Assembly: GCA_946402335.1 (NCBI GenBank)
Contig: CAMIWE010000013.1
Coordinates: forward strand, 1 to 47,686
Reading direction: 5' to 3'
DNA: 47,686 nucleotides
Source: an uncultured Lachnoclostridium sp.
Lineage (GTDB): Bacteria > Bacillota > Clostridia > Lachnospirales > Lachnospiraceae
Numbering within the stretch: the stretch's first letter is position 1; the number at the start of each line of letters is the position of its first letter. The notes below the pieces were generated by a model. The model was not told the origin of the DNA and searched no databases. It saw only the letters and a program-made list of their open reading frames with translations. Below, piece after piece: positions 5,260-36,299 of the stretch. The translations under genes were made by a program, and so were the position numbers.

Positions 5260-6606
5260 ATGGAAACATCCAAAAGAAAAAAGCGTTCCGGTTTACGCAT
5301 GAAACGCCGGACATTTGCCGTAATCATTATCAGTTTATGCGGCATTGCACTGATAGCAGAAGGGTTTCTGCTGGCACGCACATTTAAGAAGAAAAACAAA
5401 AAGACTACGCCGACGCCGACAGTGACACAGGAAGCCACCAATGTTCCGAGTCCTTTACCGACATCGCCGACGAAGAATATCCGGCACAAGCTTGTGAAGG
5501 CTACCACCCAGGGCGAGAACGGGTCGACAATTGAATACAAATACGACGAATACGGACGCCTTAAGGAATTCTGTCACAGTGATTCCGGTGAGTACACCCG
5601 GTATACGGAATATGTTTATGACAAATGCGGCGTGAGGGTAATTACCTGGCAGCTTCCGGCAGGAGAAGAGAAGTCGGAAGATAATTACATCCGTATGGAT
5701 TTCTGGGGGGACCCGTTTGAGAAGTACGAAAACGAATGCCATCTTCTGAAGGAATACAATGATCCTGCATTTGTCATAACCTATGACAAGAATGGATACT
5801 GGAAGGAAGTGACCGGAGACGAGAACCAGAGAATCACGTTCAAATTTGATGAACAGGGCAACCTGGCGTCGTACCGTCTCTTCTGTTTAAAGGCCGGCAT
5901 GGCTGAGCCGGTCGATGAAACGAGGACGTTCGAGTTCTCCGTGGATGGGAACGACACGAAAAAAGAAACAGGATTCGGCAGCATTCAGAATCCCGGCCGG
6001 CGTCTTAACTATGATATGGTATTTGAAAACGGAAAGATTGTGAAATACGGTGTCGCGATGGACGGCTTCGCTGTGGAGGATTCCACCTGGAAGTATGAGG
6101 CGGGCGGAACCATGAAACACACCCTCACATATATTGATTTAGAGAATGTGATCGAGAACGAGACCTGGTCGGTTCCGCTTCCGATCCCGGAGGAAACTGT
6201 TCCCGGAGAATTCCAGTGTGCTTCCGTTTCGCGCACGAAGCAGGAAGGCTACGAAGAGCAGTTCCTGACAGACGGAAAAGGAAGAATTATCGGAATCAGC
6301 GTGGCGCAGAGCAATTCGGATGTTCCGCCTGCCGAGGAAATTATCCTTGATTATGACGAGGACGGCAGACTTCGCTGGTTTTTGGACAGAGGCATCGAGA
6401 GAAAGCTGACATATGCGCCCAACGGTGATCTTGAGAAGATGGACTATTACATGGAAGGCGATCTGCTGATGACCTGCGTGTATGAGTATGCGGATCTGGA
6501 ATTTGAGAATTACCGGTATGATTATACCTTCGCGGGATGGGGGAGCGGGGTAACTGAAATCCCCGAAAACACCTTTTGCACATTAACTTGGGAACAAGAT
6601 AAATAA
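5260..6606 (+). CDS. Membrane-anchored protein with YD-like repeats, unknown function
   Basis: A 448-residue protein. A basic N-terminus is followed by one hydrophobic segment (about 19-39) and a Lys/Thr/Pro linker (about 43-70), so the bulk should lie outside the cell with the N-terminus as anchor. The outer part is built from short beta strands with repeated Y-x-Y-D-E-x-G-R-L-type units (EYKYDEYGRLKEF, FKFDEQGNLASY, LDYDEDGRLRWF, YAPNGDLEKMDYY), like single units of RHS/YD repeats found in cell-surface proteins, but without the full RHS shell or a toxin tip. AGGGGG lies before the ATG. A strong terminator follows. Binding or structural roles are possible; none is shown. Confidence 0.75.
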   Translation: METSKRKKRSGLRMKRRTFAVIIISLCGIALIAEGFLLARTFKKKNKKTTPTPTVTQEATNVPSPLPTSPTKNIRHKLVKATTQGENGSTIEYKYDEYGRLKEFCHSDSGEYTRYTEYVYDKCGVRVITWQLPAGEEKSEDNYIRMDFWGDPFEKYENECHLLKEYNDPAFVITYDKNGYWKEVTGDENQRITFKFDEQGNLASYRLFCLKAGMAEPVDETRTFEFSVDGNDTKKETGFGSIQNPGRRLNYDMVFENGKIVKYGVAMDGFAVEDSTWKYEAGGTMKHTLTYIDLENVIENETWSVPLPIPEETVPGEFQCASVSRTKQEGYEEQFLTDGKGRIIGISVAQSNSDVPPAEEIILDYDEDGRLRWFLDRGIERKLTYAPNGDLEKMDYYMEGDLLMTCVYEYADLEFENYRYDYTFAGWGSGVTEIPENTFCTLTWEQDK

Positions 6607-6707: not shown

Positions 6708-8066
6708 TTAAAGACACTTTCCAAGCAGGCTTCCGATGCTTTCCTCCGGCGTTAGAATGCCGTTTTCGAGGAAACGGAGCAGGAACGCATGGAAGCGGTC
6801 CACACTTTCCGGGCGGATATAATTGAGGGCAATGTTATAGGTGGCAATCAGCTCGCCGCTTGCGTCCTGCGGAGTAATGTAAACATACAGGGGCGTTGCC
6901 GCAGCACCGTTATGGATGGAATTGGCCTGAAATTTCAGATCGCTTTTTGAAAGATCAAAGTAGGGCTGATACGTGAGCCATGTTGTATGGTAGGTACATC
7001 CGGGCGGCGTCTTATGCTGTGCATTGATGATTCCGGTAAAATCCTCTAAAAGCACATCGGCATGGCGGTAGATTTCTTTCTGGATTCCGTCCAGGATCAA
7101 AAGCGCGTCACGGAAGGGAGTATCGGGAGCAATGACCGAGCGGAGCGGAAGTGTGTTGGCACGCGACAGGCCGCTTCGTTTCTGTGTGAGGGTGGAACGA
7201 CGGGCAATCACCGTATCGACGATGACGTCATCGGTTCCGCTGACCTTGCCGAGGTAGGTCCTAAGCGCTAACAGGTAATAAAGCTGTACGGCAAGCCGGC
7301 TGTCCCTGGCAGCAGCGTTCACCCGATCCACAAGCGAAGCGGGAATAACGCGGTCAATCGCGATTCCTTTCAGCTGGGTAAAATTCTGTCCCCTGCCGTA
7401 GCTGTGTCCGTCAATAAACTCGGGGCTTCCCAATCCGTTCAGGCTCGTAAAATGAGGCTCTTCCCGGTAGAACTCTTTCCACCATGCGACATCGGCCTCA
7501 TAGCGGGGAGAAGCGTAATACTGCGCTTCCTGTTCCACCATTTCCCAGGGAAGAGGAGCTTCTTTGGGAAGAGGGGCTCCGTCCTCAAGGGCTTTATAAA
7601 TCTTGCCGATATGCTCAATGGCACCGATGACCGCATAGGCATCCATAATGAAATGATGCCCGAGGAAGAACAGTTCGCGGCAGTTGTCTTCGCGTCTTAC
7701 CAGACGGGCGCGGTAGAGCTGGACATCCATGCAGTCGTTGGGGAAAAGCTCATGCGCCCAGTCGCTGTAAAGCGCCTGCATTTCCTCCTCCGTGCGTCCC
7801 GGAGCATCATAAATCTCCATTGCTTCGGGGGCATCATCGCTTACATACTGTTCGAACTGTCCGTCTTTTAAGCAGATCCGGATACGGCAGTACGGAAGGA
7901 TAGAGGGCAGCAGCCGGATGGACTCTGCAAGACGGTCTTCGTCAACGGTTTCGGCAAATCGGACGCGGACGCATATATTCAGAATCTGCTTGTCCGGATA
8001 AAATCCGAAAAGCAGTGCAAGTCCTTTTTGGGCCCTCATAAGAGGGTAGCAGGTTCTTTCTTCCAT
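6708..8066 (-). CDS. Stand-alone condensation-domain (C-domain) acyltransferase
   Basis: A 452-residue protein of the NRPS condensation/CoA-dependent acyltransferase superfamily. The active-site motif HHxxxD is present as HHFIMDAY at 137-144, with Ala in the place of the usual Gly. The length suits a single free-standing C domain with both chloramphenicol-acetyltransferase-like lobes. Such enzymes move an acyl or peptidyl group from a carrier-protein thioester to an amine or alcohol. It is the last gene of a minus-strand operon, 3 bp after the carrier protein, with the acyl ligase first. With only one carrier present, the acceptor is probably a small soluble molecule; that is inference. No adenylation or thioesterase domain is fused. 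Confidence 0.85.
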   Translation of the reverse strand: MEERTCYPLMRAQKGLALLFGFYPDKQILNICVRVRFAETVDEDRLAESIRLLPSILPYCRIRICLKDGQFEQYVSDDAPEAMEIYDAPGRTEEEMQALYSDWAHELFPNDCMDVQLYRARLVRREDNCRELFFLGHHFIMDAYAVIGAIEHIGKIYKALEDGAPLPKEAPLPWEMVEQEAQYYASPRYEADVAWWKEFYREEPHFTSLNGLGSPEFIDGHSYGRGQNFTQLKGIAIDRVIPASLVDRVNAAARDSRLAVQLYYLLALRTYLGKVSGTDDVIVDTVIARRSTLTQKRSGLSRANTLPLRSVIAPDTPFRDALLILDGIQKEIYRHADVLLEDFTGIINAQHKTPPGCTYHTTWLTYQPYFDLSKSDLKFQANSIHNGAAATPLYVYITPQDASGELIATYNIALNYIRPESVDRFHAFLLRFLENGILTPEESIGSLLGKCL

Positions 8067-8069
8067 TGG

Positions 8070-8294
8070 TCAGATTTTCCCTTCCAGATATTCCGTCAGT
8101 TCCCGAAGCGTGTAAATGCCGTTCAGGTCTTCGGTTGCAATCGTAATATGAAACCGGTCCTCCACGTCTCCGATCATCGTCATGACATCAAGGGAGGTCA
8201 TATGCAGATCCTCCGTAAAACTTGTGTCAGGAGACAGACCGCCCTCCGGTTCTTCGACATAATTGCGTAATATCTCACACAAACTTTCGTACAT
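8070..8294 (-). CDS. Acyl/peptidyl carrier protein
   Basis: A 74-residue carrier protein with the usual four-helix pattern and the phosphopantetheine attachment motif DLHMTSLD; Ser34 is the expected site. TFTEDL-like residues before it (DTSFTEDL) and LRELTEYLEGKI at the end are typical of ACPs. AGGAG lies before the ATG. The neighbours are an AMP-forming acyl ligase upstream and a condensation-domain protein 3 bp downstream, so it probably carries the acyl group between them rather than acting in fatty acid synthesis. It must be activated by a phosphopantetheinyl transferase; one of Sfp type is encoded at 35562-36299. Confidence 0.93.
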   Translation of the reverse strand: MYESLCEILRNYVEEPEGGLSPDTSFTEDLHMTSLDVMTMIGDVEDRFHITIATEDLNGIYTLRELTEYLEGKI

Positions 8295-8314
8295 GGTTTT
8301 CTCCTCACCGGCCG

Positions 8315-8408
8315 TTACCGGCTCTTTTCATTGTTGTCCCGATTATACATCACCGGTTCTTCTCATTGTTGTTCTTACAAGACGTCAACGGTTCTTTTCC
8401 CCGTCGTT
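8315..8408 (-). repeat. Three 35-bp tandem repeats of the ligase gene's stop region
   Basis: Cores at 8385-8408, 8350-8373 and 8315-8338 recur at exactly 35 bp. The first is the coding end of the acyl ligase (NDGEKNR-stop). On the minus strand the next two read NNNEKNR-stop and DNNEKSR-stop, each in its own frame. Roughly 18-20 of 24 core positions match between neighbours. They fill the gap before the carrier protein gene. Confidence 0.8.
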
Positions 8409-10022
8409 GAGCAGATGACGCTTGATTTTCATGGTTGTATTCTTTTCAAACGGAACCGGACGCACTTTGATGTGATGGATGTTCTTGGCAGAAGGCATTT
8501 TGCGGTTGAACTGTTTCACATCGGCGCTAAGACGCTCCTTCGCGTCCGGATAGGACGCTTCATCCAGGTAAAACTCCGCGGTAATGTTCCGGTTCTCTTC
8601 GTAAACGGCGACTTCCTTCACGTACTCGAAGCGGCAAAGTTTCTGCTCGAGTTCCTCAGGCGACACATTTTCCCCGTTCGAGAGAATGATCAAATTCTTC
8701 TTGCGGCCGGTGATGTAAAGGAAGCCGTCCTTGTCCATGCGGCCCTGGTCGCCGGTTTTGAACCATTCGCCGTCAAATGCCTCCGCGGTTGCCTCGGGAT
8801 CCTTATAATAGCCCTTCATGACATTGCTTCCGGATACATAAATCTCGCCGATACCGTTCGCGTCCGGGTCATGAATGATAACGCGGTTACAGGGGAGCGG
8901 ACGGCCGACACTGCCGAAACGGTAATCGTGGTTGCGGTTAACCGACACGACAGGGGAACACTCCGTAATCCCGTATCCGGTAATTACCTGGATGCCGATG
9001 TCGTAAAGGCCGCGCTGAATCTTCTCGTCAAGGGCTGCACCTCCGCAGATAATCGTCTCAAGCTGTCCGCCGAAGGTGGCATGAATGGAGCGGAACAGGC
9101 GTCTGCGGACATCAATGCCGATTGCCATAAGGGCCCGGCTCAGGCGGATTCCGCGTTTCAGTTTCTTTTCTTTGCCCTGTTTGCGCGCGGTATTCCATAT
9201 GCCGTTATAGATCATCTCGACCATCATCGGTACTGCGGAAATGTTCTGCGGTTTGTTCCGTTCCATGTCACGGATCACATGGTGCAGGTTTTCGCTGATG
9301 TGCCCGTCCTTAATGTATAAAAAGGCGGCGAACATAGCCGAGGCCCAGGAAAATGCATGGTTCAACGGGAGAAAAACCTGCGCATGGCGCGCCGTGACAC
9401 ACCGGCAGGTTGCCACCACGTCGGTGGTCAGATTGCCGTGCGTCAGCATGACACCTTTACATTTGCCGGAGGTTCCGGAAGTATATACGATACAGGCAAG
9501 GGTGTCCGGCGTGATTTCGGTTTCCGAAACGGGTTGCCCGTTCAAAAGGCATTGGTTGCCTTCGGATATTATGGCATCCAGCTGCTGGATGGAGAAGAGC
9601 CGGATGTCCGAAAGAGAGGCGTCCCTGTTCTGACAATACGCAACCTTCTCCTTAAGTTTTTCGGTATAAAACAAAGCGGAGCAATCGCAGCCCGCGAGCA
9701 GTTCGTAAAGCTCGTCTTCAGGCAGGTTCCGGTCTAACGGAACGACGACATTGCCGCTGTTCGTGATGCCGAAATAACAAAGACACCATTCGGTGGAATT
9801 CTCTCCGAGCAGGGCAATGTTCTTTCCGTGAAAGCCCTGTGCGGAAAGGAAGGCGCCGATGGAGCGTATTCCTGCGGCACATTCCCGGAAGGAAAGCGGG
9901 CGTTCGTCCTGGCCGGTATAAAAGACGGTTATGTCTCCGCCGGCCTTCTCGCCGTTGTCAATCAGTTCGCAAAGTGTATGTAAGTCCGGCATATCGTAAT
10001 AGGGATACGGACGGTTTTTCAT
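8385..10022 (-). CDS. AMP-forming acyl ligase (long-chain acyl-CoA synthetase-like)
   Basis: A 545-residue adenylate-forming enzyme. Visible motifs are the P-loop YTSGTSGKCKGV (180-191), GYGITECSP (349-357), the ribose-binding TGDQGRMD (423-430), the hinge GRKKNLIILSNGENVSPEE, and a C-terminal KNTTMKIKRH carrying the likely catalytic Lys. The GYGITECSP form is typical of fatty acyl-CoA synthetases rather than amino-acid adenylation domains, so a fatty or aryl acid is the likely substrate. As first gene of an operon with a carrier and a C-domain protein it probably loads the carrier protein. Start ATG follows GGAGGT. The last codons (NDGEKNR-stop) are echoed twice in the intergenic DNA downstream. 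Confidence 0.88.
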   Translation of the reverse strand: MKNRPYPYYDMPDLHTLCELIDNGEKAGGDITVFYTGQDERPLSFRECAAGIRSIGAFLSAQGFHGKNIALLGENSTEWCLCYFGITNSGNVVVPLDRNLPEDELYELLAGCDCSALFYTEKLKEKVAYCQNRDASLSDIRLFSIQQLDAIISEGNQCLLNGQPVSETEITPDTLACIVYTSGTSGKCKGVMLTHGNLTTDVVATCRCVTARHAQVFLPLNHAFSWASAMFAAFLYIKDGHISENLHHVIRDMERNKPQNISAVPMMVEMIYNGIWNTARKQGKEKKLKRGIRLSRALMAIGIDVRRRLFRSIHATFGGQLETIICGGAALDEKIQRGLYDIGIQVITGYGITECSPVVSVNRNHDYRFGSVGRPLPCNRVIIHDPDANGIGEIYVSGSNVMKGYYKDPEATAEAFDGEWFKTGDQGRMDKDGFLYITGRKKNLIILSNGENVSPEELEQKLCRFEYVKEVAVYEENRNITAEFYLDEASYPDAKERLSADVKQFNRKMPSAKNIHHIKVRPVPFEKNTTMKIKRHLLNDGEKNR

Positions 10023-10077
10023 AAGCTGACCTCCGTCTTCTGAATATCGGAAAATGATCAGAAGAACAATCTATTTT

Positions 10078-10106
10078 ATGATAAAGGTTTTTCCGAAAAA
10101 TCGCAA
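10078..10106 (-). promoter_or_regulatory. Probable promoter of the acyl ligase operon
   Basis: On the minus strand TTGCGA (10106-10101) and TATCAT (10083-10078) are separated by 17 bp, about 55 bp before the ligase start. Neither hexamer is perfect, so this is a moderate call. Confidence 0.45.
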
Positions 10107-10184
10107 CTCTTTTTTCCTTTTCGCGGGGAAAAGGGAGGCTTTCGGACGATATAAAAATGTGCCGTTTTTCGGCAAATTTGCCTT

Positions 10185-10220
10185 GTTACGGTAGCATTCT
10201 TTCGTAACATGTGATATACT
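10185..10220 (+). promoter_or_regulatory. Inverted repeat and -10 element before the lipoprotein hydrolase
   Basis: GTTACG and CGTAAC form an inverted repeat with a 12-bp spacer (10185-10208), and TATACT follows at 10215-10220, 37 bp before the ATG. The repeat covers the -35 position, where no good hexamer is seen, so it may be an operator for an activator or repressor. A 12-bp palindrome GGCAAATTTGCC lies just upstream at 10171-10182. Confidence 0.4.
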
Positions 10221-10256
10221 TATCAAAATCCGTTTGGATACAGAGGAGAAGACAAT

Positions 10257-11126
10257 ATGAAGAAAAGAAACCGAATGCTGATTGCCGTGATCGTATTCAC
10301 CCTTACGGCTGTCCTTATATCCGGCTGCGGCGGGAAGAAGGACGGCGGCAAAGGGCAGGACGGGAACGCGGAGCAGGAAGCAAAGAAAGATGAGAATGAA
10401 CTTCCGATTCTTCGACCGAGTGATATTCCGACAGCGGACCCCGGCGGGGAGAAGGAGCAGCAGGACAGTACAGACCCCGGTGTTACGCCGGATGAGAATA
10501 AGGAGGAGATTATGGGAGCAGCAACATTACGGTATCAGGGACACGGAAGCCTTCGCATTATCACTGCGGAAGGCAAGACCATCTATATCGATCCGTTTTC
10601 GGGAGACGGATACGATGTTCCGGCCGACCTGATTCTGATTACCCACGGACATTACGACCATACACAGACACAGCTGATCACAACGAAGAACGAAGGCTGC
10701 AAAACCATCACCTACGCGGAAGCCCTGAGCGGCGGAACCCATCAGAGTTTCGACCTCGGTTTTGTCAAGGTTGAAGCGGTGGAGGCAGGCTATAACAAGA
10801 ACCACAACGTAACGGAGTGTGTCGGCTACATTCTCACGTTCGGTAACGGTGTGAAACTTTATGTTTCCGGCGATACGTCGAAGACGAAGGACATGGAGAC
10901 ATTTGCCGCAAAGAAGTTAGACTATGCGTTCTTCTGCTGTGACGGCGTATACAACATGAATATGGCGGAAGCCATCGAGTGCGCGAACCTGGTCGGCGCG
11001 AAGCACAGCATTCCGTACCATATGGTACCGGCCAATCAGAGCGGTTTTGACCAGTCGGTTGCGGAGCAGTTCAAGGTCGAGGGACGGATCATCCTGGCGC
11101 CCGGCGACGAGCTGGTGCTTGACTAA
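10257..11126 (+). CDS. Lipoprotein metallo-beta-lactamase-fold hydrolase (UlaG-like)
   Basis: A 289-residue lipoprotein. The signal peptide ends in LISGC, with Cys24 as the lipidated residue, followed by a polar linker to about residue 85. The rest is an MBL-fold hydrolase of the UlaG/RNase Z-like branch: HGHYDH at 130-135 supplies the first metal ligands, SGDTSK the bridging Asp, and the late YHMVPAN segment a further His. The substrate is unknown; family members cleave phosphodiesters or lactones. Being lipid-anchored outside the cell is unusual for this branch. GGAGAAG precedes the ATG. It is followed at 61 bp by a GH43-type gene on the same strand. Confidence 0.88.
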   Translation: MKKRNRMLIAVIVFTLTAVLISGCGGKKDGGKGQDGNAEQEAKKDENELPILRPSDIPTADPGGEKEQQDSTDPGVTPDENKEEIMGAATLRYQGHGSLRIITAEGKTIYIDPFSGDGYDVPADLILITHGHYDHTQTQLITTKNEGCKTITYAEALSGGTHQSFDLGFVKVEAVEAGYNKNHNVTECVGYILTFGNGVKLYVSGDTSKTKDMETFAAKKLDYAFFCCDGVYNMNMAEAIECANLVGAKHSIPYHMVPANQSGFDQSVAEQFKVEGRIILAPGDELVLD

Positions 11127-11187
11127 AGGCCCTAAGGGAGTGCAAAACGGCGAACCCGCCGAAGAAATATAAGTGAGGAAACGTAAT

Positions 11188-12624
11188 ATGAAAGAGTATA
11201 TCAAGGGTGCCAATCCCTACATGCCGCTCTGGGAACATGTCCCGGACGGGGAGCCGAGAGTGTTTACGCACAACGGCGAGGAGAGAGTCTATGTATACGG
11301 CTCGCACGACATTGAGCGGACACAGTATTGCGGACGCAATTATGTTGCCTGGTCCGCGCCGGTCACGGATCTGACTGACTGGACGTATCACGGCGTCTGC
11401 TACGAGACACATTATGATTCGATTCTATACGCACCCGACGTTGTAAAGAAGGGCGACACTTACTATATGTATGCGGCGGAGCGGAAGGGCAGCCTTGTTG
11501 TCGTTGCCTCCTCAAAGAATCCGTGGGGACCGTTTGAGAATCCGGTGGAGACGAAGCTCGGCTTCGATCCCGGCGTTTTAGTGGACGATGACGGCAAAGT
11601 ATACGCTTATTGGGGCGGCTGCGCGGCACCGTGCTACATCGCCGAAATGGAAGACGACATGGCTACGATCAAAGAGGGCACGCTTGTGTCGAACCCGCTC
11701 GGGCATTCGACCTGCCCGTGGGATCCGAGAGACGACGGACATATCTCGCTGATCGATGCATTTTTCGAAGCCTCTAGCCCGCGAAAGGTAATGGGCAAAT
11801 ACGTTTACATTTTCTCGAGACGCTACGAAAAGCCCATCCCCGAACTCGGCGTGTTTGAGCCCTGCAACGGATTCCTTTCCTACCGCATAAGCGATACGCC
11901 CTTCGGACCGTTCCATGACGGCGGCGACATCAGCTTTAACGGCGGAGAGATCCTTCGGGACAGCGAGGGGCTCGGCACCATGACGTACCGCTGGGGCAAC
12001 AACCACGGCTCCATTATGGAAGTGAACGGCCAATGGTACATCTTCTACCACCGCCAGACCGGTACGGACGAGTACTCGCGCCAGGCGATGCTTGAGCCGG
12101 TTGATGTGGCAATGGGAACGGACGGGCAGTTATACATCGGCGACGTTAGATATTTAAACGGCGAGCCGGTTTCCTCAAAGCCCGTCGAGATGACATCCCA
12201 GGGTCCGCACATCAACGGACTGGATGCTTATAAATGGATTTCCGCAGGTTATGCCTGCCATATATACGGCAGCCGCAAATACGCCTATATCCGTCCGGGA
12301 TACGAACAGCGGGACGACATTTCGACCCCCGTTGTGAATATCACACCGGGAACTACGGTCGGCTTCCGTTACCTGCAGTTCGGAAGCAATCCCGCGAAAA
12401 CCGTGACGGTCGTTTTGGAAGAGGCGAAGGCCGGAACCGTCCGGGTACGAATCGATTCCTACAAGGGGCGTGTTGTAGCGGAGGCTACACTGGACGGAAC
12501 CGTGAAGGAAGCAACGGCGGCACTTACTGCCGGCGTGATCGGAAAGCATGCGGTATACTTTGAATTTGCCGCAAAGAATGCGGACGAAACCTTTATCTTC
12601 GACCGGTTCACATTTGACTGCTAA
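11188..12624 (+). CDS. Glycoside hydrolase family 43-type enzyme with C-terminal CBM6-like domain
   Basis: A 478-residue cytoplasmic enzyme of the five-bladed beta-propeller GH43 type (beta-xylosidase/alpha-arabinofuranosidase group). The N-terminus has ANPYMPLWEHVPDGEPRVF, where Asp20 is a candidate catalytic base; FDPGVLVDDDGKVYAYWG supplies the conserved Asp that tunes the acid; FFEASSPRK gives the likely acid Glu; and NNHGSIMEVNGQWYIFYHR the conserved His. Residues from about 335 on look like a carbohydrate-binding module of family 6 type, ending in ETFIFDRFTF. No signal peptide, so it probably acts on imported oligosaccharides. ATG 11188 is preferred over GTG 11173 because GAGGAA sits before it. 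Confidence 0.88.
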   Translation: MKEYIKGANPYMPLWEHVPDGEPRVFTHNGEERVYVYGSHDIERTQYCGRNYVAWSAPVTDLTDWTYHGVCYETHYDSILYAPDVVKKGDTYYMYAAERKGSLVVVASSKNPWGPFENPVETKLGFDPGVLVDDDGKVYAYWGGCAAPCYIAEMEDDMATIKEGTLVSNPLGHSTCPWDPRDDGHISLIDAFFEASSPRKVMGKYVYIFSRRYEKPIPELGVFEPCNGFLSYRISDTPFGPFHDGGDISFNGGEILRDSEGLGTMTYRWGNNHGSIMEVNGQWYIFYHRQTGTDEYSRQAMLEPVDVAMGTDGQLYIGDVRYLNGEPVSSKPVEMTSQGPHINGLDAYKWISAGYACHIYGSRKYAYIRPGYEQRDDISTPVVNITPGTTVGFRYLQFGSNPAKTVTVVLEEAKAGTVRVRIDSYKGRVVAEATLDGTVKEATAALTAGVIGKHAVYFEFAAKNADETFIFDRFTFDC

Positions 12625-12674
12625 AAGGTTTTGAAAGCGGACGAACGCAATACAACAGAATGAGGAGAACATTC

Positions 12675-13148
12675 ATGGAATTTACAACTGATATTTTCAA
12701 ACAGTTTGACAAGAAATGGGCACTGCTTACGGCAGGCCGGGAGGACAGCTTTAACACGATGACCGTCAGTTGGGGCGGCATGGGAACCATCTGGGGAAAG
12801 CCCGTTGTTATGGTGTATGTGAGAGCATCCAGATACACGCACGAATTTATGGATGACAATGCGTATTTTACGCTCAGCTTCTACCCGGAGCAGTACAAAA
12901 AAGAACTCGGCGTGCTCGGCGCGAAGTCGGGACGCGATATGGACAAGATGCATGCATCCGGCCTTACCGCAATCCCGGCGGGGGAGTCGATGACGTTTCA
13001 GGAAGCCGAAGTGACGATTGTCTGCAGGAAACTGTTCCGGCAGCGTCTTGCTCCGGAAAATATGCCGAAGGACGTCGTTGAGCGGTTCTACGGCGATCAG
13101 GACTGGCATGATATGTATATCGGTGAGGTTGTTGATATAATCCGCTAA
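12675..13148 (+). CDS. Flavin reductase-like FMN-binding split-barrel protein
   Basis: A 157-residue protein of the flavin reductase-like (FMN-binding split barrel) family. The start ITTDIF-type segment, the KKWALLTAGREDSFNTMTVSWGGMGTIWGKP stretch (short sections KKWALLTAG, NTMTVSWG, MGTIWGKP) and YTHEFMDDNAYFTLSF are characteristic. Family members bind FMN and reduce flavins or act as small redox partners; the partner here is not evident. ATG 12675 is chosen over 12660 because GAGGAG lies between them at good spacing. A hairpin terminator follows directly. Confidence 0.88.
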   Translation: MEFTTDIFKQFDKKWALLTAGREDSFNTMTVSWGGMGTIWGKPVVMVYVRASRYTHEFMDDNAYFTLSFYPEQYKKELGVLGAKSGRDMDKMHASGLTAIPAGESMTFQEAEVTIVCRKLFRQRLAPENMPKDVVERFYGDQDWHDMYIGEVVDIIR

Positions 13149-13152
13149 AGTA

Positions 13153-13195
13153 TGACCGCAGTCACGAAAAGGCATGACTGCGGTCACTTGTTTTT
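13153..13195 (+). terminator. Terminator with TGACCGCAGTCA arms
   Basis: A perfect 12-bp stem: TGACCGCAGTCA (13153-13164) with TGACTGCGGTCA (13175-13186), followed by CTTGTTTTT. A near-identical hairpin ends the thiamin operon at 26790. Confidence 0.8.
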
Positions 13196-13278
13196 AAAGG
13201 GAGGAAGAAGTACTCTTTAGGCAGAACGGAAGGGAAGCCGGCTTCGGGCGGATTGATCTTCGGAAGCAGGAGGGCAGG

Positions 13279-13707
13279 ATGGATCGGAAGACAAGAGTGA
13301 TTTACGGTATTATTGCAGCTGTTTCGATCAGTGTGCTGGTGATTGTATTGACCGTTATCCGCTCGGGCGGAATCCGTTACCGGTCGAGTTTCACGGCAAC
13401 GATGATGGTCACCACGAATACTTCGAAAACCATGAAACTGAGTTTCTCAACGTTTCGGGGGACTAAGGTCGGCACCCTTCGGAATAAGAGCGACGCAGAA
13501 GTGCAGCTCCGTTTCAAGGGAAAGCTGGAATCCGGAACGCTCAGCGTATATTATGACTGTGACGGGTCCAAAAAGAAATTGTTCGATCTTCATGCCGGTG
13601 AGCAGGTCGATTCCGTCGGAGCACGGATTCCGAAAGGCAAGGTAACTATTATCGTTGAGACCGACGGCAAATGCGAGGAAGGTAAGATTGAGGTTTCCAT
13701 CGAGTGA
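13279..13707 (+). CDS. Small membrane-anchored protein, unknown function
   Basis: A 142-residue protein with a basic start, one strongly hydrophobic segment (about 6-26) and an exterior domain of about 110 residues rich in beta strands. There is no lipobox, so the segment may be an uncleaved anchor or a signal peptide. The exterior sequence (SFTATMMVTTNTSKTMKLSF, then SGTLSVYYDCDGSKKKLFDLHAGEQ) resembles small secreted proteins of clostridia, but no family can be named. AGGAGGGCAGG precedes the ATG. No clear partner gene; it lies between two terminators. Confidence 0.75.
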   Translation: MDRKTRVIYGIIAAVSISVLVIVLTVIRSGGIRYRSSFTATMMVTTNTSKTMKLSFSTFRGTKVGTLRNKSDAEVQLRFKGKLESGTLSVYYDCDGSKKKLFDLHAGEQVDSVGARIPKGKVTIIVETDGKCEEGKIEVSIE

Positions 13708-31956: not shown

Positions 31957-32760
31957 ATGAGTAATCTGATTGCAATTGCTAACGAAACCAAGAAAATCAC
32001 TCGAAACGGCTGCTATGACATGGACGGACATACCATCCGCTTTCCGCAGACGGACCTCAGCGCGGTGAAGGTTTATACGCCGGAGGAAGGCCTTGCCTTA
32101 TGCGCCAAATACGAAGGCGCGGACGGAACGGTACCGGCGTTTGAAATCACGACGGAGGATTCCTTCCAGGCGGCAAGAAGATTTGAGCATCCGCTTGTCA
32201 TGAATTTTGCGAATGCCCATCATCCCGGCGGAGGATTCGAAATCGGAGCAACCGCCCAGGAGGAAAGCCTGTGCCGCTGCAGCACGCTGTTTGCTTCCTT
32301 AAAGAGCGAGGCGGCAAAGGAAATGTACCGCTACAACAACGCCCACCGCTCCGGTGTCGAATCGGATTATATGCTTCTTTCGGACCCGGTTTACGTGTTC
32401 CGCAACGAGCGCTACGAATTGCTAGATAAGCCGGTCCCGGTCGGGGTTATCACGTTGCCCGCTCCGAACCGCAACGGTCTTGCGATGTTTACGACCTCCG
32501 AAAAACTGGAGGCGGCAATGACGAAGCGGCTGCGCATTATGGCTGCTGTAGCAAAGGAGAACGGATTCCGTTCCCTGATCTTAGGAGCCTGGGGCTGCGG
32601 TGCATTCCGCAACGATCCGGTAAAGGTCGCAGGGTATTTCAAAAAGGTATTGCTCGAAGAAAAATTCGGGGCATATTTCGATTCAATCTGCTTCGCCATC
32701 TACGGCAAAGAAGACGGAAAGAACATCACGGCGTTCCGGGAGGTTCTGGGAACAGACTGA
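31957..32760 (+). CDS. Bacterial-type poly(ADP-ribose) glycohydrolase-like protein (TIGR02452)
   Basis: A 267-residue protein of the TIGR02452/DUF2263 family with a macrodomain fold, the bacterial form of poly(ADP-ribose) glycohydrolase. The signature GGG followed after seven residues by QEE is present: GGG at 91-93 in HHPGGGFEIG and QEE at 101-103. The Glu pair cleaves ribose-ribose bonds in characterised members. ILGAWGCGAFRNDP is the conserved late loop. AAAGGAGAG precedes the ATG. A strong terminator follows. Its link to the ADP-ribose-type Nudix gene at 34997 is a guess from proximity. Confidence 0.9.
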   Translation: MSNLIAIANETKKITRNGCYDMDGHTIRFPQTDLSAVKVYTPEEGLALCAKYEGADGTVPAFEITTEDSFQAARRFEHPLVMNFANAHHPGGGFEIGATAQEESLCRCSTLFASLKSEAAKEMYRYNNAHRSGVESDYMLLSDPVYVFRNERYELLDKPVPVGVITLPAPNRNGLAMFTTSEKLEAAMTKRLRIMAAVAKENGFRSLILGAWGCGAFRNDPVKVAGYFKKVLLEEKFGAYFDSICFAIYGKEDGKNITAFREVLGTD

Positions 32761-32935: not shown

Positions 32936-34795
32936 CTATCCGACAACCTTCTCAAAGTCGTCTTTGCCGTGCTTGCAAAGCGGGCAGATGAAGTCGTCCG
33001 GAAGCTCCTCGCCTTCGTACTCATAACCGCAGATCTTGCACACCCATTTGGTTTTCGGCGTGTCACTGCGCTGCGGCTTCGGTTTGATGTGCGCGAAGTA
33101 GTATTCGTACGTTACGGAAGGCTCGCTTGAGAGCACTTCGCTTTCCGTGATGTCGGCAAGGAAGATGCTGTGGGAACCGCAGTCCGTTACGGAAACAACC
33201 TTGCAGCTGAATACCGCATTGGTGCTCTTCGTGATCGCAAGCAGTCCGTTTGAAGTACGCTTGACATCCTCAAAACCGGCGTATTTGTCCGTGTCACGTC
33301 CGCTGGCGAAGCCGAAGCGCTTGAACAGGTCAAACTCAGCCGATTCGGTCAGCACGGAAACGTTAAAGACGCCCGTGCGGACAATCAGATCATGCGTATA
33401 ATTGGCCTTGTTAACTGCAATGGCGAGACGGTTCGGACCGGACGCCGCCTGGATCGTCGTGTTGGTAATGCATCCGTTATCCCGGTCGCCCTCGCGGGTG
33501 GAAATGACGAACAGACCGTAGCTTAACTTGAAGAGAGCGGCAGGGTCGGTGGAACCGGCAGCCGCAGGAGCATCGGAAACCGCAGCGCCTTCGGTAACCG
33601 GGAAGGTCGCGATCAAAGAGTCGGCAAGCGTATCAAGCTCGCTGAGCTGGGATTCCGCAAGGGAACTCTTTAAGGATACAAGAGGCTCCACATAGGACAT
33701 GTCCTTACACTCTTCAAAGAGGGCGCGCATCTTGCGGCCGCTCTGTGCCGCCCAGGTACCGTTCTCCAAAAAGGCAACCGTGCGGTTGCGGATATTGTGG
33801 GCCACGAGATCACGGAGCGCCTCATCCATGCGGACGAATATTTCCGCATTGTAGGTCGTTGCGGCAAATACGAGGTGGCTGTAGCGGAACGATGCGGATA
33901 CGATCTCGGACGCAGGTTTAACGGAAACGTCGAACATCGTAACCTTTGCGCCGCGCTCGCGAAGCTTCACGGCAAGAATCTCGGCTGCATTCTCGGTATT
34001 GCCGTATACCGAAGCATAGGCGATCATAACGCCGGTTTCCTCGGGCTCATAACGGCTCCATTTGTCGTAATACGAAATGTAATCCCCGAGATTGCGGCGC
34101 CATACGAAGCCGTGCAGCGGGCAGAGCATCCTGATCTCAAGGGCTGCAGCCTTCTTCAGAACGGCCTGCACCTGCGCACCGTATTTGCCGACGATATTCG
34201 TGTAATAGCGGCGTGCTTCATCAAGGTAATCCCGGAAGAAATCCACCTCGTCGGCGAACAGATTGCCGTTCAGCGCACCGAACGTACCGAATGCATCGGC
34301 GGTGAAAAGCGTGCCGGTCGTCTTATCGTAGGTCATCATAACCTCGGGCCAGTGAACCATCGGGGCCATGACAAATGTGAACTCGTGACGTCCCGTGCGC
34401 ATCACGTCGCCCTCTTTTACAAGATAGGGCTTGCGGGATGCATCTACATATCCGAAGCGGATCATCATGTCGAAGCTTTTCTGGTTGCATACGACAACAC
34501 AGTCGGGATAGCGAAGAAGCAGTTCCCGAAGCGTTGCGCTGTGGTCGGGTTCCATATGGGAAACCACGACGAAATCCAGCTCGCGTCCGTTCAGAACGTG
34601 GGTAAGGTTTTCAAAGAATACTTTATCGACTGCGCGGTCAACCGTGTCAAACAGGACCGTCATCTCGTCAAGAAGCAGATAGGAGTTGTAGGAAACGCCG
34701 TCCGGTACGGAATAAACGCCTTCAAACATGGCAAGGCGCCGGTCGTTTCCGCCGACCCAGTACAGGTCATCGGTTACCTTTCTGGTACAATACAT
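32936..34795 (-). CDS. Four-domain flavodiiron protein (MBL-flavodoxin-flavin reductase-rubredoxin)
   Basis: A 619-residue enzyme that reduces O2 or NO to protect an anaerobe. Domains in order: MBL-like diiron core (1 to about 250) with ligands His80, Glu82, Asp84, His85, His148, Asp167 and His228; flavodoxin (about 257-400, ASVYGNTENAAE loop); flavin reductase (about 435-555, SYGLFVISTREG, NKANYTHDLI); and rubredoxin (about 570-619, VCKICGYEYEGEELPDDFICPLCK split as CKICGY and CPLCKH). It thus carries its own electron chain. ATG 34795 follows GGAGG; a longer frame to 34858 adds an unlikely 21 residues. Confidence 0.95.
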   Translation of the reverse strand: MYCTRKVTDDLYWVGGNDRRLAMFEGVYSVPDGVSYNSYLLLDEMTVLFDTVDRAVDKVFFENLTHVLNGRELDFVVVSHMEPDHSATLRELLLRYPDCVVVCNQKSFDMMIRFGYVDASRKPYLVKEGDVMRTGRHEFTFVMAPMVHWPEVMMTYDKTTGTLFTADAFGTFGALNGNLFADEVDFFRDYLDEARRYYTNIVGKYGAQVQAVLKKAAALEIRMLCPLHGFVWRRNLGDYISYYDKWSRYEPEETGVMIAYASVYGNTENAAEILAVKLRERGAKVTMFDVSVKPASEIVSASFRYSHLVFAATTYNAEIFVRMDEALRDLVAHNIRNRTVAFLENGTWAAQSGRKMRALFEECKDMSYVEPLVSLKSSLAESQLSELDTLADSLIATFPVTEGAAVSDAPAAAGSTDPAALFKLSYGLFVISTREGDRDNGCITNTTIQAASGPNRLAIAVNKANYTHDLIVRTGVFNVSVLTESAEFDLFKRFGFASGRDTDKYAGFEDVKRTSNGLLAITKSTNAVFSCKVVSVTDCGSHSIFLADITESEVLSSEPSVTYEYYFAHIKPKPQRSDTPKTKWVCKICGYEYEGEELPDDFICPLCKHGKDDFEKVVG

Positions 34796-34891
34796 AACAC
34801 ACCTCCGTTGTTCGGATTTTAATACTTTCAGTATAGAGTAGAAAAGGAACGCGGTCAAGGGAAAAAGGTGTCACCCGCATGGCAGATTGCA

Positions 34892-35561: not shown

Positions 35562-36299
35562 ATGATCAAAGTATACTTGGCCGATATCGGAACAATGGAT
35601 GGCGATACCCGGGACAGACTTTTCGCAGTCTTAAGCACGGAGCGGAAGGAACGGGTTTTGCGCTATAAAAGAGAGAAGGACCGTCTGCTCGGCATCGGTG
35701 CGGGAGCATTGGTTTCAATGGCGCTTTCGGAGGAACTGCAGAAGGACCCCGGCGGGAGTGCCGCGACCTTTAAGAGGGACTCGCGTCAGGAAACCGGCGC
35801 GGAGGTGCTTCTTTGTGAGGTTGGTTTTGCTTCTCTTGATACGGAAGGTTTTCCTTCCCCTGCGGAACTGGAAACGGGGAAGGGAGCACACGGAAAGCCG
35901 TACCTTAAGAAGTATCCGGCATGGCATTTTAACCTGTCACATTCGGGGACAAAGGTGATGCTTGCCTGTTCCGCTTCGGAACTCGGCGTGGACATCGAAA
36001 AGACCGGACCGGTGCGGGAACGGGTTTTAGGGAAGGCATTTGCCCCGGCGGAACAAAGGTATGTGAATGCCGCAGAAGGGGCGGAACGGGACAGCCGCTT
36101 TACGGAAGTATGGGCCCGTAAGGAAAGCTTTTTAAAAGCATGCGGCACGGGAATCGAACGGGAACTCGGGACATTGTCCGTAATCGGAGAGGACGGAAAG
36201 CCGGTTCGGTCGATTGTCACGGAGGAAGGATCGTATGACCTGTACTGCCCGGCGGAAATAGACGGTTATGAGTGTTTTCTGTGCGTGAAAAGAGGATAA
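35562..36299 (+). CDS. Sfp-type 4'-phosphopantetheinyl transferase
   Basis: A 245-residue enzyme that moves phosphopantetheine from CoA to the Ser of carrier proteins. Motifs: HGKPYL (110-115), FNLSHSG (123-129), GVDIEK (142-147) with the metal-binding Asp-Glu pair, and WARKESFLKACG (184-195). The length and these motifs match the Sfp/EntD group that serves secondary metabolism rather than AcpS. Start ATG 35562 follows GAGGGG. The only carrier protein in the window is at 8070-8294, so it is a candidate partner for that operon, 27 kb away. Confidence 0.93.
   Translation: MIKVYLADIGTMDGDTRDRLFAVLSTERKERVLRYKREKDRLLGIGAGALVSMALSEELQKDPGGSAATFKRDSRQETGAEVLLCEVGFASLDTEGFPSPAELETGKGAHGKPYLKKYPAWHFNLSHSGTKVMLACSASELGVDIEKTGPVRERVLGKAFAPAEQRYVNAAEGAERDSRFTEVWARKESFLKACGTGIERELGTLSVIGEDGKPVRSIVTEEGSYDLYCPAEIDGYECFLCVKRG

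Follow-up and report, generated by a model that had tools for sequence, protein, structure and literature searches.

An outlying, seldom found operon of free-standing ligase, carrier and condensation domain genes related to fatty acid amide cassettes in an uncultured Lachnoclostridium sp.

Layout of the operon

The stretch of DNA analysed here (the window) comprises positions 1 to 47,686 (47,686 nucleotides) of contig CAMIWE010000013.1, assembly GCA_946402335.1, of an uncultured Lachnoclostridium sp. Three adjoining genes on its minus strand form a genuine, compact operon, transcribed in the order A-T-C: (i) a free-standing acyl-AMP ligase (A, 545 amino acids (aa), positions 8385–10022) with matches to PF00501 (E 1e-63) and PF23562 (E 6.3e-5), (ii) a free-standing carrier protein (T, 74 aa, 8070–8294) with a PP-binding match (PF00550, E 4.6e-11) and the phosphopantetheine-accepting Ser34 in the motif MTSLD, and (iii) a free-standing condensation domain (C, 452 aa, 6708–8066) with a match to PF00668 (E 2.4e-29) and the motif HHFIMDA at residues 137–143. 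The ligase and carrier genes are separated by 90 bp, the carrier and C domain genes by 3 bp, and a Shine-Dalgarno-like stretch, recognized by eye, precedes all three starts (GGAGG before the ATG of the ligase gene). The original prediction had placed three free-standing genes with these motifs, and with TSGTSGKCKG and GYGITECSP in the ligase, in this region, which is borne out by the open reading frames (ORFs) and by the Pfam scan, covering part of the window's genes.

The intergenic region at 10023–10256, shared with a divergent gene at 10257, is the probable promoter region on the minus strand. A promoter-like site at 10106–10078 (minus strand), upstream of the ligase gene, is one candidate, such sites being not clearly enriched in the region (6 vs. 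a mean of 3.6, standard deviation 2.0, in shuffles). The gap between ligase and carrier genes contains a 21-base stretch, ACAACAATGAxAAGAxCCGGT, in two near-identical copies (8372–8352 and 8337–8317; found by eye).

Relation to fatty acid amide cassettes

Operons of this gene content have been described before. Gut Clostridia are reported to produce fatty acid amides (FAA) with a free-standing adenylating enzyme, a carrier and a C domain (PMC13142362), the original report on the cassette being that of Chang et al., as referred to in citing papers. OaaC of Coprococcus eutactus (OaaA-OaaACP-OaaC; structure of OaaC, PDB 12KH) is reported to couple carrier-bound oleate with free aminovaleric acid to oleoyl aminovaleric acid, to carry a 17-residue insertion with a helix from Gln214 and to share with other FAA C domains, reportedly close to starter domains, the catalytic motif (D/H)HxxxD followed by S, A or G (PMC13142362). 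The same system was named CTA operon, with homologs (criterion, 70 % identity over 80 % of the protein) in 36 species, all of them Lachnospiraceae, and was linked to acyl amines in cultures (PMC13060934). The lipids reportedly act on G protein-coupled receptors of the host (PMC13142362) and on gut hormone release (PMC13060934).

A scan of contigs from close relatives revealed one further A-T-C locus, L001, in one other genome; its ligase and carrier share 67 and 66 % identity with their counterparts in the window. In the main C domain tree (49 rows, i.e., an earlier 64-row tree minus 22 near-duplicate, truncated or very long-branched rows plus 7 plasmid C domains from other taxa, without curated starter domains), the C domains of the window and L001 form a pair (100/100) which joins the FAA domains (100/99.9), a placement that agrees with the 64-row tree. 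Constraining the pair to cluster with the 15 clostridial comparison C domains (the 7 plasmid ones aside) cost 39.5 log units and was rejected by the approximately unbiased (AU) test (p-AU 0.000639). Grouping with the outlier L024 was likewise rejected (p-AU 0.0096); grouping with the outlier L056 was not (p-AU 0.114), and the status of the pair as first branch is therefore uncertain. A position of both C domains inside the wider FAA clade appears well supported for the sampling used, in which the outgroup is limited.

The best PDB match of the window's C domain is OaaC (12KH, E 1.7e-28, residues 4–448), the next one being partial (6.3e-11). A search with an 11-row profile also ranked 12KH first (1.1e-180; next, 1.8e-29), as expected, since nine of the rows are from FAA-type loci. 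The stretch holding the insertion comprises 57 residues in the window and L001, as compared to 62–64 in the eight displayed domains of FAA type and 42–45 in the 20 comparison domains. Both retain its EPxF start; by our reading of the alignment, the stretch contains a short form of the insertion reported for OaaC. Of 53 FAA-specific positions (selected for conservation in 85 % or more of 40 CTA domains and for occurrence in no more than 25 % of 20 comparison domains), 17 are shared by the window and likewise 17 by L001, 29 by L024 and 22 by L056. The definition biases the counts of the CTA domains (36–53) and comparison domains (1–7), but not those of the window, L001 and the two outliers. HHFIMDA, present in both C domains, conforms to the published motif and is not discriminating, because similar motifs occur in all the 20 comparison domains as a set. 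The possibility of an ordinary assembly-line C domain was rejected on the insertion length together with the AU test against the 15 comparison domains.

In case of the carrier, the residue preceding the modified Ser is Thr, Asn or Ser in 21 of the 22 CTA carriers, Thr in the window and L001, and Asp in the three other carriers of the window's genome. With a profile built from all 22 CTA carriers, L001 scored 81.6 bits and the window 70.1 bits, vs. 54.2, 43.6 and 38.7 bits for the other three; the reading that the window carrier is no more FAA-like than these was therefore rejected. A carrier grouping with the acyl carrier protein of the fatty acid synthase had been named in the original prediction as an outcome that would count against it. 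The window carrier fits the FAA profile better than the genome's other three do, but in NCBIfam it matches best to acyl carrier protein models, each time under the respective cut-off.

The ligase shows a different affiliation. Its best NCBIfam match is the long-chain fatty-acid ligase model PRK06187 (239 bits; the cut-off of 476 is not reached), and its identity to the ligases of the 22 CTA loci is 31–37 %. In a tree of 43 rows (22 CTA-locus ligases, the A-T-C pair and 19 further ones; filters removed L089 and three other ligases of the window's genome, and four more of that genome did not enter), the window and L001 group with L069, a ligase standing alone, within the general acyl ligases and not with the CTA ligases; the original prediction had named a grouping with plain acyl-CoA synthetases as the unfavourable outcome. 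By contrast, all but one of the 22 CTA-locus ligases (21) make up a clade of their own (100/100); the remaining one, of the C-A-T locus L119, falls in the other group. The operon is thus a mosaic that combines a C domain and carrier of FAA type with a ligase of different origin. The swap may have occurred in the A-T-C line or in the CTA ancestor; the sequence data favour neither.

Distribution, gene order and neighbourhood

The C domain of the window has matches at E 0.001 or better in 40 of 150 genomes of the family, many of them in CTA cassettes and some in large frames of non-ribosomal peptide synthetases (NRPS). Within the genus, a free-standing C gene is present in only 1 of 22 genomes (G168 has only a match inside a 2865-aa frame), which rules out the operon as a genus-wide trait. 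No further A-T-C members were found by C domain search in 150 family, 99 relative and 391 class genomes (overlapping sets), nor with a joint profile of L001 and the window in 295 genomes of the order, a set that overlaps the others; this holds for matches with an assigned locus, four free-standing ones (one in the family set, one in the class set, two in the order set) having none. The best full-length C domain identity besides the window is 29 % (family, relative and class sets). Ligase searches in 391 and 397 genomes (at most three candidates scored per genome) yielded 48 % identity for the best candidate by E-value, and in 20 of the 21 ligase loci L069–L089 the C domain of the window gave no hit at E 0.01 within the stretch taken, the exception being L087. 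Plasmid searches returned only distant matches (6 records in one; 27 records in the other, among the 10 matches listed). For the A-T-C order, nothing was found in the titles and abstract openings of the papers listed by literature searches.

Among the 89 loci compared, the order C-T-A occurs in 37 and C-A-T in one (L087, the same place as L024); in the free-standing FAA-type loci L028 and L057 only C was found, and the carrier of L041 appears only in the larger stretch L108. Of 22 larger loci, 21 have C-T-A and one C-A-T. The carrier gene of the window operon sits between C and A genes as in CTA operons, with the order of transcription reversed. The original prediction proposed that a conserved three-gene order be sought across clostridial genomes; the gene content is indeed widespread, but the A-T-C order recurs in one other genome only. 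Taken together, the outcomes that the original prediction had named as refuting it give a mixed picture, and its interpretation is supported in part.

Several related loci display additional genes. In L119 (3742–7714, genome G047), C-A-T is followed by a phosphopantetheinyl transferase, and its ligase is from the general acyl-ligase group; the order-level FAA-type loci L149, L153 and L155 have a match to the window's phosphopantetheinyl transferase near C. Members of one gene cluster lie near C in 15 of 22 CTA loci, and the three that were scanned, located next to C (L102, 6582–7586; L104, 868–1830; L105, 6883–7830), are all alpha/beta hydrolases, which could release fatty acids or cleave amides. 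No counterpart was detected among the neighbours scanned in the window. In L001, a 1375-aa MMPL-family transporter (9401–13528) is encoded 38 bp downstream of C on the same strand and is a possible product exporter; an MMPL gene is absent from the scanned neighbours of the window operon.

The neighbours of the window operon are a plus-strand gene at 5260–6606 (448 aa, without Pfam match at E 0.001) and, divergently, a metallo-beta-lactamase-fold gene at 10257–11126. In the congener G166 (L143), a GGDEF gene, a small gene, the metallo-beta-lactamase-fold gene and a GH43 gene (91 % identical) are consecutive and the operon is absent, the spacing from GGDEF to lactamase-fold gene being 0.7 kb vs. 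6.4 kb in the window. The operon is accessory, i.e., gained in the window's genome or lost elsewhere. Farther away, the window encodes a microbial-type PARG catalytic domain of the poly(ADP-ribose) glycohydrolase family (31957–32760) and, from a TTG start, a large fusion of ODP/lactamase-fold, flavin reductase and rubredoxin-like parts (32936–34858), in which a flavodoxin match stays narrowly under its cut-off.

Proposed function and comparison with known systems

The operon probably represents an outlying FAA-type system in which a fatty acid is loaded onto the carrier and passed to a free amine to yield an N-acyl amide, a reading to which we assign a probability of roughly 0.75. With OaaC taken as model for donor, acceptor and partner proteins, the ligase would activate a fatty acid as acyl-AMP and load this carrier, and the C domain would transfer the carrier-bound acyl group to a small, freely diffusing amine, releasing the N-acyl amide; due to this direct transfer, neither a second carrier nor a thioesterase would be needed. 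Phosphopantetheine would be added to Ser34 of the carrier by the Sfp/AASDHPPT-like transferase encoded outside the operon (35562–36299, plus strand) or by another one. This Sfp-type transferase, correctly recognized in the original prediction, matches PF01648 (E 1.8e-14) and PF22624 (E 1.7e-6), and its PF01648 match is the only one in the window's genome (assembly 86.49 % complete). The transfer from one carrier to a soluble acceptor, as originally proposed, is consistent with the FAA/CTA chemistry (PMC13142362); of the two product types then considered, kinship favours the N-acyl product and nothing found favours the O-acyl one.

Several findings weigh against an FAA-type assignment. Across the 89 loci, the A-T-C order is confined to the window operon (three copies) and L001. 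The C domains of both are only about 22 % identical to OaaC, a range also typical of many assembly-line domains, as compared to 33–56 % for most free-standing C domains found and 27–28 % for the outliers L024 and L056. Their branch lies outside the core CTA/FAA set (97/94 without them), and the 64-row tree gave warning of long branches meeting. The first residue of HHFIMDA follows the habit of the comparison domains (His in 19 of 20) rather than the CTA majority (Asp in 33, His in 4 and Asn in 3 of 40). CTA carriers score 84.8–128.0 bits in leave-one-out profiles, all 22 above the 70.1 bits of the window; judged by profile scores and the residue before Ser, the window carrier is thus FAA-like yet outside the range of the CTA set. 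Finally, holding the window and L001 ligases with the 21 CTA ligases was 51.4 log units worse and rejected (p-AU 0.000124), and with it the reading as a plain CTA ligase.

An acyl-transfer operon with another kind of donor or acceptor than in the FAA system, e.g., an aryl or short-chain acid as the former or an alcohol or amino acid as the latter, would accommodate the ligase of another lineage, whose group includes ligases beside other gene sets, as well as the 36 of 53 FAA-specific positions not shared, the HH motif and SRANTLPLR stretch unlike the CTA rows, and the branch of length 1.23 leading to the window and L001 in the C domain tree. We consider it rather unlikely, since both the C domain and the carrier fall in with the FAA system and the best NCBIfam match of the ligase is a long-chain fatty-acid ligase model, though under its cut-off. 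An NRPS fragment or helper, with ligase and carrier starting a lipopeptide and the C domain passing the acyl group to another carrier encoded elsewhere, could be suspected from the related ligases at L097, L098, L099 and L101, which stand next to a carrier or to large frames that match adenylation domains. However, the C domain is a 452-aa free-standing ORF and no second PF00668 domain was found at E 0.001 in the 86.49 % complete assembly, the scanned neighbours of L001 (major facilitator superfamily, MMPL and one without match) are not NRPS genes, and grouping with the 15 comparison C domains was rejected, making such a role improbable. A decayed remnant of an acquired FAA cassette would agree with the sporadic occurrence (1 of 22 genus genomes) and the absence from the matching place in G166, but is very improbable given three open reading frames with intact motifs and the identities of 67 % (ligase) and 66 % (carrier) to L001.

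One may tentatively speculate that the A-T-C operon is a separate early FAA branch that recruited a different ligase and joins a different donor or acceptor than C-T-A operons; a different donor or acceptor would imply a hitherto undescribed class of acyl conjugates. The outlying lineage shows that FAA C domain and ligase do not always travel together, and the window and L001 provide an outgroup for asking which residues set amine and acyl chain. The A-T-C operon would escape searches that demand high identity with the CTA proteins known so far.

FeeM and the N-acyl amino acid synthases, the only comparison made in the original prediction, form a similar type of product and belong to a different protein family; to our knowledge, they lack a C domain and a dedicated set of carriers like the one here. 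The published FAA/CTA system had been missed, and the concept is not new because of it: the operon type is already published, and the window copy is a seldom found, outlying form. 1L5A, a VibH-type free-standing C domain with soluble amine acceptor and aryl donor, resembles the window's C domain in being free-standing and in using a free amine, as predicted for the window; it is a much weaker match (E 2.9e-6, residues 122–218 only).

Like the FAA (CTA) cassettes, the window operon consists of adjacent genes for three free-standing proteins, ligase, carrier and C domain, without second carrier or thioesterase, its C domain lies in the wider clade with a short FAA-type insertion, and the residue before the carrier Ser is not Asp. 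Unlike these, it has the order A-T-C instead of C-T-A, a ligase of another clade, and a C domain outside the core clade with about 22 % identity to OaaC and 17 of 53 FAA-specific positions. Compared to the CTA operon of Blautia wexlerae, as described in PMC13060934, the carrier gene is likewise located between C and A genes, and identities to OaaC and the loci found (C domain, about 22 %; ligase, 31–37 %) are far below the 70 % over 80 % of the protein that defined the study set. That operon joins fatty acid and amine to acyl amines, the same chemistry as proposed here for the window operon.

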